Positions 10,624-22,520 of a stretch of DNA of 64,000 bases are shown here, in pieces. Both the position numbers and the translations under genes were made by a program. Source of the DNA: Pyrofollis japonicus. GTDB taxonomy: Archaea; Thermoproteota; Thermoprotei_A; Sulfolobales; Pyrodictiaceae. The stretch is from positions 1,789,126 to 1,853,125 of the forward strand of contig NZ_AP028634.1 in the NCBI RefSeq assembly GCF_033097485.1, written 5' to 3'. The number at the start of each line of letters is the position of its first letter. Positions within the stretch are counted from its first letter, which is position 1. Under the pieces are notes generated by a model, which worked only from the letters and a program-made list of their open reading frames with translations, was not told the origin of the DNA and did not search any database.

Positions 10624-12405
10624 CTAGGCATGCGAATAGATTGCAACTATTTTTCTAACGTTATTATTGTCGTCTACTTCGACGGAATCTATGCGGGCAA
10701 ATCCTATCCTCACGAACTGTACTACCTCGCCCACACGTATAGTCTTTATAGCCTCTTCTGCTACGCCCTTGCGATACTCTATGTCGAGACCCTCTGGAAC
10801 CATAAGCAGCAGCGATATGTTATTCTCACTTGGAACCCATTGAATTATTGGGGCTCCGTACTTTCTTGCCTCGTCAACGCTGAGACTATGGAACCGTGCA
10901 CGCAGTGGGGTCTTCTCTGCCTCAACAACCTCTATGTTAAACGCCTCCATGAGTCTTACTATCTTGCTATTTCTCACTAGTTTCAGGTCGTCGCTTGATA
11001 TGTAGATGGTCGTTGTTGGGCCTTTTACCTTGATTGGCCTTGAGCCTAGCTTACCGTTTGGATGAAACGGTATATTGAATTCCTTTTCGCTCCACGGTAG
11101 ACCCTCAACAAGTAGTGGCACTGGATTAATTACTGCCATTATTCTCTTAGTGTGGTTATCTATTATTGACCTGTTTATCGCCGCAAGGTTTGCGAAACTT
11201 ATGCTCGCATCAGTATACTTTACGCCAACTTCTAGTATGATTTGCCTTATTGCTTCGGGGCTGAAGCCTCTACGGCGTAGACCGGCTATTGTAGCGAACC
11301 TGGGATCGTCAAATCCGCTTGCTGCACCAGCTTCATAGAGCTTCTTGAGAGTAGACTTGCTCATTATGAAGCCTTCGAGTTTGAGCCTACCGAAGTGGAC
11401 AACGTCAGGGTACTTCCAGCCCAGACAGTTATATACGTATTTTTGCTTCTCCGTATTCTGCATATGCTCCTTAGCTCTGAGTATATGGGTCACACCCATA
11501 AGATGGTCGTCGACGCCTGCAGCGAGATTATATGTAGGCCAGACAGTGTACTTGTCGCCAACGATTGGATGCGGATATAGCTCCGGATTTATTATTCTAA
11601 AGGCAACCCAGTCACGAATGCTTGGGTCAGGATGACGTGGATCAGTTTTTATGCGTAATACGGCCTGGCCTTCATCGAAATATCCTTGAAGCATTTTGTC
11701 CCAAAGCTCCAGGTTTTCTTCGGGAGACCGTAGGCGTGGAGGATACTTTTCTAGAAGGCCTTTGTTCCTGTACTTTCTGAACTCCTCGCTGGGCTTATCA
11801 TCTACATATGCACAGCCTCGTTCGAGAAGCTTTCTAGCAATATCGTAGTAAATAGACATTCTAAGGCTTTGGATGTATTCCTCATCCCATTTTAGGCCTA
11901 GCCACTTAAGATCCTCCCTTATTGCTTCATATGCTTCAGGAAGAGGAGTCTTTGTGCGTGGATCTGTATCTTCGAAGCGCAGAATGAAACGTCCCTTGTA
12001 CATTACTTTGTACTCGTAGCTTAATATAGCGGGACGCGCGTTTCCAAGATGTATTGCGAAATCTGGATTCGGGGCAAAACGTGTAACAACTTTGCCTTCA
12101 ACGGCTCCTGGCAAAGGTGGCAATGTCTTCTCTTTTTCCTCCCTTGATTTTCGCCTTTCTAGAACCCAGCTGTACTTTTCCTCAAGAAGCCTCTTCTGTT
12201 CATCGATTGATAGCGAATTTATCTCTTTAACTATCTCAGCCACTATCCTCGCTATCTCCTTGGCGTGTCTCCGCAGCTCCGGCTTTTCGGCAATAATCTT
12301 CCCCATTACGGGGCCTACGGCTGCTTTCCCCGAGTGCTCAACAGCGTTTAGTAAAGCGTATGCTTTTGCAAGCTCTCGTACCTGTTCAACGTCGTACTCT
12401 GATAT
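10624..12405 (-). CDS. gltX: Glutamyl-tRNA synthetase, archaeal type, apparent ATA start
   Basis: 593 aa if it starts at ATA 12403-12405; the first canonical codon (ATG 12306) would delete 33 residues of the conserved archaeal N-terminus (AKAYALLNAVEHSGKAAVG). A TGA lies two codons before the ATA, so no ATG/GTG/TTG is available upstream. GGGAGGTGGTGA (12409-12420) is ideally placed for the ATA. Class I signatures: HLGN (HIGH equivalent) in RFAPNPDFAIHLGNARP, and MSKS in GFIMSKSTLKKL. A GlnRS-like beta-barrel C-terminus marks the archaeal GluRS family. It charges tRNA-Glu, and tRNA-Gln where amidation is used. The start overlaps the DUF2118 gene by 20 bp. Confidence 0.93.
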   Translation of the reverse strand: MSEYDVEQVRELAKAYALLNAVEHSGKAAVGPVMGKIIAEKPELRRHAKEIARIVAEIVKEINSLSIDEQKRLLEEKYSWVLERRKSREEKEKTLPPLPGAVEGKVVTRFAPNPDFAIHLGNARPAILSYEYKVMYKGRFILRFEDTDPRTKTPLPEAYEAIREDLKWLGLKWDEEYIQSLRMSIYYDIARKLLERGCAYVDDKPSEEFRKYRNKGLLEKYPPRLRSPEENLELWDKMLQGYFDEGQAVLRIKTDPRHPDPSIRDWVAFRIINPELYPHPIVGDKYTVWPTYNLAAGVDDHLMGVTHILRAKEHMQNTEKQKYVYNCLGWKYPDVVHFGRLKLEGFIMSKSTLKKLYEAGAASGFDDPRFATIAGLRRRGFSPEAIRQIILEVGVKYTDASISFANLAAINRSIIDNHTKRIMAVINPVPLLVEGLPWSEKEFNIPFHPNGKLGSRPIKVKGPTTTIYISSDDLKLVRNSKIVRLMEAFNIEVVEAEKTPLRARFHSLSVDEARKYGAPIIQWVPSENNISLLLMVPEGLDIEYRKGVAEEAIKTIRVGEVVQFVRIGFARIDSVEVDDNNNVRKIVAIYSHA

Positions 12406-12895
12406 ACTTCACCACCTCCCTGGGTGACACAAAGACTATGTTCTTTTCATATGTTCCCTCGGGAGCAGAGTAAATGTAAACCACTATGCCTTCAACATGG
12501 GTCTTTATGCGCCTCATCTCGTGCTTGCCTGTCAATACGAAGCCTATCGTGTCCCATTTCTTCAGTTTTTCTCCCTCACAGACCTCTATAGAAGCCCTTA
12601 TTCCTTCAACTGGGATAGGCTCTATAGGTGCATCCTTTGGTACAAATACTCCCTTGTCGTAGCCAGGTGGAAGCAAAACAACGAAGCCTTTTTTGACACG
12701 TTTTTCCACAAGGTCTATGAAGTCGATGGCTGAGCCATATATTATCTTGCCGAAACAATGTTGTTCTTTGCTACATTCTCTTACTACTTTAGCCTCCATT
12801 TCATTAGTTAACATGAGGTACTCAGTAGACTCAACTCCTTCAACGTAGAGTCGCGGAATATGGTATGGGTGTTTCTCGCAATAGCTTGTGTTCAA
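12386..12895 (-). CDS. DUF2118 family protein
   Basis: 169 aa from TTG at 12895. It resembles the archaeal DUF2118 (COG4072-like) family. The C-terminal half has a biotinyl/lipoyl-like beta pattern: EVCEGEKLKKWDTIGFVLTGKHEMRRIKTHVEGIVVYIYSAP, where VEGIVVYI resembles the end of a lipoyl-type hammerhead. No biotinylation MKM motif is seen (the equivalent is KHEM). Sits between prenyl diphosphate synthase and gltX in the long minus-strand train. Function unknown. Confidence 0.7.
   Translation of the reverse strand: MNTSYCEKHPYHIPRLYVEGVESTEYLMLTNEMEAKVVRECSKEQHCFGKIIYGSAIDFIDLVEKRVKKGFVVLLPPGYDKGVFVPKDAPIEPIPVEGIRASIEVCEGEKLKKWDTIGFVLTGKHEMRRIKTHVEGIVVYIYSAPEGTYEKNIVFVSPREVVKYIRVRR
12409..12420 (-). 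promoter_or_regulatory. Strong Shine-Dalgarno upstream of the ATA codon of gltX
   Basis: The minus strand reads GGGAGGTGGTGA, then AGT, then ATA. The GGAGGTG core ends 7-8 nt before the ATA. It lies inside the 3' end of the DUF2118 gene. There is no other start codon in frame between the preceding TGA and the conserved N-terminal region. Confidence 0.7.
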
Positions 12896-22070: not shown

Positions 22071-22520
22071 CTACCTGCTCCTTTTCACACCAATAGTCAT
22101 GCCGAGGCGACCTGTCGTAGCTGTTCTCTGACCGCGCACTTTGAGTCCTAGTGCATGGCGTATACCTCTCCAGCTCTTTATCCTCTTCTCCCTCTCTATA
22201 TCGCGACGAGCATAGTATATCAAGTCAGCACCGACGAGGTGTATATCTTTACCGGTTTCGTAATCCTTACGCCTATTAAGCATCCATACGGGAACGCCTA
22301 CAGCTAATGGATTGGAAAGTGCGCTCTCAATTTTTTCTATCTCGGTATCTGTTAAGAAGCCTATTCTCTTATGCGGGTCTATACCTAGTAGACGGCAGAG
22401 AGTGAGCGCTAAGTTTACTCCAACTCCCTTAATCCTGGCCAGTCCATAAGGTACCTTTAGATCGCCCGGAATATCCGTTCCAGCTATCCTAACGATGTAA
22501 CGATACTGCTGCTCGCTCAG
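22071..22520 (-). CDS. rps13: Small ribosomal subunit protein uS13, apparent CTG start
   Basis: 149 aa when read from CTG at 22518-22520. The conserved N-terminus (SEQQYRYIVRIAGTDIPGDLK) lies entirely upstream of the first ATG (22283). The frame from the preceding TGA (22587-22589) to that ATG contains no ATG, GTG or TTG. GAGGTGGT (22526-22533) ends 5 nt before the CTG, and a TATA box at 22572-22581 predicts a transcript start near 22551, leaving a 30-nt leader. GLARIKGVGVNLALTLCRLLG and the RIKSWRGIRHALGLKVRGQRT tail identify uS13. First gene of the ribosomal/polymerase train. Confidence 0.93.
   Translation of the reverse strand: MSEQQYRYIVRIAGTDIPGDLKVPYGLARIKGVGVNLALTLCRLLGIDPHKRIGFLTDTEIEKIESALSNPLAVGVPVWMLNRRKDYETGKDIHLVGADLIYYARRDIEREKRIKSWRGIRHALGLKVRGQRTATTGRLGMTIGVKRSR

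Follow-up and report, generated by a model that had tools for sequence, protein, structure and literature searches.

The essential gene for the archaeal-type glutamyl-tRNA synthetase (GluRS) of the hyperthermophilic archaeon Pyrofollis japonicus (Pyrodictiaceae), gltX, very probably begins at an AUA codon, as judged from comparison of DNA and protein sequences. We estimate at about 85% the probability that it is translated from AUA 12405-12403 by the ordinary initiator tRNA and a strong Shine-Dalgarno sequence (SD). The best reading of the data would be a rare initiation at a near-cognate codon anchored by the SD, rather than a recoded start. The gene lies on the minus strand (10624..12405) of the window, by which we mean the whole 64,000-nucleotide stretch of DNA analysed here. 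The window in turn lies within one contig of 2.0 Mb.

The gltX locus and its N-terminal codons

Counted from ATA, gltX consists of 593 codons. A profile search showed that its product matches archaeal glutamyl-tRNA synthetases over the full length and above the curated cut-offs, with E 2e-234 and 779 bits for NCBIfam PRK04156 (cut-off 516) and E 7e-173 and 576 bits for TIGR00463 (cut-off 402). The minus strand at the beginning of the gene reads ...CACCCAGGGAGGTGGTGA AGT ATA TCA GAG TAC GAC GTT GAA CAG... The order of codons in the gltX frame is TGA (12411-12409), AGT (12408-12406) and ATA (12403..12405, minus strand). The frame is closed by TGA two codons 5' of ATA, exactly as the sequence-only reading had described it, and the open reading frame covers 10624-12408. 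From this TGA to the conserved GluRS N-terminus the frame has no ATG, GTG or TTG. The first of these codons in the frame is ATG 12306 (12304..12306, minus strand), which is located 33 codons after ATA and codes for residue 34. The 3' end of the upstream gene, coding for a DUF2118 protein (12386..12895, minus strand; Pfam PF09891, E 2e-39), overlaps the gltX start, and its TGA is found at 12388-12386.

The 33 residues ahead of ATG 12306 can be aligned with a solved archaeal GluRS (PDB 3AII) from residue 4 of that protein, and position 3 of PRK04156 and position 2 of TIGR00463 fall on gltX residues 7 and 10, respectively. Both the structure and the profile alignments agree with the earlier claim that 33 residues of a conserved archaeal GluRS N-terminus precede the first ATG. 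The conservation of this stretch reaches as far as Bathyarchaeota. When the loci L002 and L003, both of this genus, were compared before the first ATG, 17 of 25 differences were found at third codon positions (binomial p 4e-4). When this genome was compared over the first 33 codons, third positions held 18 of 34 differences with L002 (p 0.014) and 14 of 29 with L003 (p 0.07), so that the third-position excess is weaker with the own genome in the comparison than in the L002-L003 pair. These data indicate that the stretch ahead of ATG 12306 is protein. If translation instead began at ATG 12306, which no canonical codon precedes in this frame, GluRS would be shorter by 33 residues and the upstream part would be left untranslated. 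This alternative had been raised together with the AUA proposal, but it would delete a segment present in 3AII and in both GluRS profiles and conserved to Bathyarchaeota, in which L002 and L003 differ mostly at third positions, and the strong SD sits at ATA. Since these 33 residues are conserved in archaeal GluRS, a start at this ATG is very unlikely, and the codon was rejected on the basis of structure, profile and ortholog comparison.

Shine-Dalgarno sequence, ATA codon and initiator tRNA

In this genome, the 16S rRNA has the 3' tail ...GGATCACCTCC. The sequence GGAGGTG (12413..12419, minus strand), which is conserved in the genus, is complementary to seven consecutive bases of the anti-SD in this 16S rRNA and is separated from ATA by 7 nt. 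This confirmed the presence of a near-perfect SD just ahead of ATA, as claimed before. In 76 genes of the own genome with a canonical start and a strong SD, the spacing ranged from 3 to 11 nt with a mode of 6-7, and the spacing of 7 nt (SD+7) in gltX is close to this mode; it is a good SD at a normal distance. In an SD-anchored tally, which included orthologous duplicates, near-cognate codons were mildly enriched at spacing 7 (5/16 versus 5/54 at other spacings, p 0.04).

The conservation of the start region was analyzed in five genomes of the genus, this one and four congeners ("Pyrodictiaceae archaeon" assemblies). In all five sequenced species of the genus AGGAGGTGG precedes ATA with identical spacing, and ATA is the only codon one position off AUG found at a normal SD distance in every one of them. 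In the four congeners the open gltX frame reaches seven codons farther in the 5' direction, and this extension has no canonical codon. In sister genera the aligned codon is GTG (L012, L014 and L015) or ATG (L017). Both observations speak for the start at AUA proposed in the sequence-only reading. That reading had also considered a base error turning ATG into ATA. One base change would indeed make the codon canonical, but the same ATA is carried by four separately assembled genomes of the genus, and a sequencing or assembly error hiding a true ATG is practically negligible. The 5' end was readable in 84 gltX loci, and 75 of them have a canonical start ahead of the conserved ALLNA motif; the other nine represent the five genomes of this genus, four of them fetched twice. 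Among the loci compared, it is the only genus without a canonical gltX start.

The TCA codon behind ATA is as conserved as ATA itself, and in genus g2 a TTG at SD+10 aligns one codon later than ATA, with TCA. Both facts would fit another non-canonical start, for example TCA right after ATA. However, UCA mismatches AUG at three positions and AUA at one, and the spacing near the canonical mode (SD+7) is that of ATA. Serine follows the aligned start codon in most of the sister genera, as it does in gltX here, and the sister genera with this arrangement place the start at the ATA codon. We consider a start of this kind extremely improbable, and AUA the preferred start codon.

The ATA codon overlaps the TAT ATC codons of the DUF2118 gene, and part of its conservation could be due to this overlap. 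In L003 the overlapping codons of the upstream gene are changed (CAT AAT ATC) and ATA is kept. The same overlap offers a route of termination and reinitiation, in which ribosomes ending the DUF2118 gene would translate gltX and the identity of the codon would matter little. The stop codon of the DUF2118 gene follows ATA by about 17 nt, and genus g2 has the same arrangement with TTG. However, reinitiation cannot serve two other genes described below: rps13 has no overlapping upstream gene, its nearest upstream feature being a tRNA about 210 nt away, and the NusA-like gene is divergent from tRNA-Ala. Moreover, reinitiation would modify the favoured model rather than replace it, with AUA still the start. 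As a separate explanation it is unlikely; coupling to the DUF2118 gene may help gltX.

A single initiator tRNA (A1-U72, GGGCTCATAACCC, anticodon CAU) was found among the 45 tRNAs, and none of the 45 is an initiator with an altered anticodon matching the unusual codon. Because the only initiator tRNA has CAU, a recoded initiator does not explain AUA. Loss of aIF1 was also rejected as a cause, as aIF1 was found in 13 of 13 genomes checked. Neither the CAU initiator tRNA nor aIF1 appears unusual. For the observed anatomy of the start site, we infer as the simplest mechanism that the normal initiator tRNA reads a near-cognate codon fixed by the strong SD. GGAGGTG would pair with the 3' end of 16S rRNA and place AUA in the P site, where the ordinary initiator Met-tRNA (CAU) would accept it through a single third-position A.C mismatch. 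Methionine would be inserted at AUA, and GluRS would then begin with Met-Ser-Glu-Tyr. Initiation would be efficient enough, with the exact placement of the SD making up for the weakness of the codon. Translation of rps13 (from CUG) and of a few more genes in the family probably starts in this way too.

Other genes without a canonical start

The second non-canonical start in the window is that of rps13 (uS13; 22071..22520, minus strand), for which CTG 22520-22518 is the putative start codon. It is preceded by the SD GAGGTG with a spacer of 7 nt, as in gltX. The sequence-only reading was right to name rps13 as a second essential gene with a non-standard initiator and a strong SD. In seven genomes from four genera of Pyrodictiaceae (G000, G005, G006, G009, G011, G014 and G016), the frame contains no canonical codon from its closing stop to the conserved N-terminus, and CTG is the only available start. 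In genus g8 GTG precedes CTG, and a genome of genus g4 has GTG. A canonical rps13 start was found nearby in all 30 sampled genomes of other families. CTG accounts for only 11-16% of leucine codons in these genomes.

Outside the window, a NusA-like gene (G000:C1:1307491-1308024, also L247, minus strand; PRK06418 profile) lacks a canonical start in 12 of the 14 Pyrodictiaceae genomes. In most other families the start is ATG, GTG or TTG directly before K-I-P. Pyrodictiaceae, family f10 and part of f8 have GTA, GTC or GTT in place of this codon, invariably preceded by TCG (10 genomes), ACG (8) or ATA (3), 21 genomes in all. The same three codons occur at that preceding position in 2 of 22 genomes whose later codon is canonical. 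The TCG/ACG/ATA codon is found at SD+6 to +8. This pattern suggests that TCG, ACG and ATA drift at one site in Pyrodictiaceae and two other families. A second candidate start is GUN at SD+10; with TCG/ACG or with GUN, the start would be non-canonical in the 12 genomes. Other canonical codons are present in the NusA-like gene upstream in G013 and G006 and as a GTG inside the SD in G063 and G036, and genus g25 of f10 has ATG two codons later.

A survey of all genes for conserved N-termini upstream of the first canonical start had been proposed earlier. Ours covered stretches amounting to 847 kb in this genome, 536 kb in a congener and 800 kb in another genus. Orthologs were compared for 513 genes from this genome, 446 from G004 and 307 from G011, which added a few cases that appear weaker. 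The names of these genes were assigned by reading the sequence, not by profile search. A small membrane protein gene of G004 has ACG at SD+7, behind GGTG and aligned with the TTG of the ortholog in this genome, and an endonuclease-V-like gene of G004 has ACG at SD+8. In an aldehyde ferredoxin oxidoreductase gene of G011 (G011:C1:1432941-1434872, minus strand), the frame is open for 95 codons without ATG, GTG or TTG, and CTG is located 7 nt after GGGTG, near the ATG of the ortholog. A radical-SAM gene of this genome (G000:C1:1972830-1973702) has ATA aligned with the ATG of a congener (L173, G004:C16:386509-387447), but its strong SD lies 7 nt before TTA, not ATA, and the candidate start is either ATA or TTA. 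Cases seen in a single genome may be errors. The genes flagged by conserved DNA upstream of the first canonical codon were mostly accounted for by tRNA genes, by antisense reading, by overlap with an upstream gene or by a conserved leader.

Non-canonical starts make up roughly 1% of the about 500 genes surveyed, and about 99% have no such defect. The suggestion of relaxed start selection in this organism thus finds limited support: a few conserved genes do appear to lack ATG, GTG or TTG, but only at this frequency and next to an initiator tRNA and an aIF1 that appear normal.

Relation to known systems and significance

Non-canonical starts are established in bacteria, with AUU in infC of E. 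coli, AUC in infC of Streptomyces and GUC in sigR of Streptomyces (PMC5472188). Like gltX, these are conserved genes with a strong SD and a start other than AUG, GUG or UUG, overlooked by annotation with three start codons (PMC5472188). They differ in being bacterial and used for regulation by IF3, whereas gltX would be an archaeal AUA case in an aminoacyl-tRNA synthetase gene, with the start derived from sequence comparison. The closest crenarchaeal example is ribosomal protein L12ae of Staphylothermus marinus, with an apparent ATC start; it is also an essential gene without a valid start, and its start was deduced by alignment with other archaea (PMC2678158). It is, however, a single remark on one genome, whereas the AUA of gltX is kept across a genus and further genes are similar. 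The consulted parts of a survey of start-codon evolution (36 genome triplets, about 69,000 reconstructed ancestral starts) report that a few starts changed to CUG or AUU (PMC5622118); a switch to AUA is not mentioned in those parts, whereas in gltX it is fixed in the genus. In the literature searched, with partial coverage, we found nothing on unusual starts in Pyrodictiaceae, and no case of a housekeeping gene whose AUA start is fixed throughout a genus and accompanied by further non-canonical starts across the family.

In Sulfolobus and Pyrococcus, start selection is controlled by aIF1, which destabilises initiation complexes on non-AUG mRNA (PMC6237735) and discriminates against them (PMC6237735, PMC8211752). 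The same factor is present in Pyrodictiaceae at the gene level. Gene callers allow only ATG, GTG and TTG, and starts of the kind described here are therefore misplaced or missed. The published shares of ATG, GTG and TTG in Pyrodictium delaneyi total exactly 100% (PMC5556600), which means that any gene with another start is misannotated or absent there.

Pyrodictiaceae seem unusually tolerant about the site of translation start. A wider and more doubtful idea, which we put forward only tentatively, is that in Pyrodictiaceae and neighbouring families the pairing of the SD with 16S rRNA at a fixed distance may define the start almost regardless of the codon. AUA, CUG, ACG and even UCG, with two mismatches to the initiator anticodon, would then start essential genes, and the codons would drift at a fixed site. 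If a naturally fixed AUA start is confirmed, and with it the CUG and probable ACG or UCG starts of genes for ribosomal proteins and transcription, Pyrodictiaceae would offer a test system provided by nature. It would allow testing how far SD pairing replaces codon recognition in archaeal initiation, and what role aIF1 plays in it.
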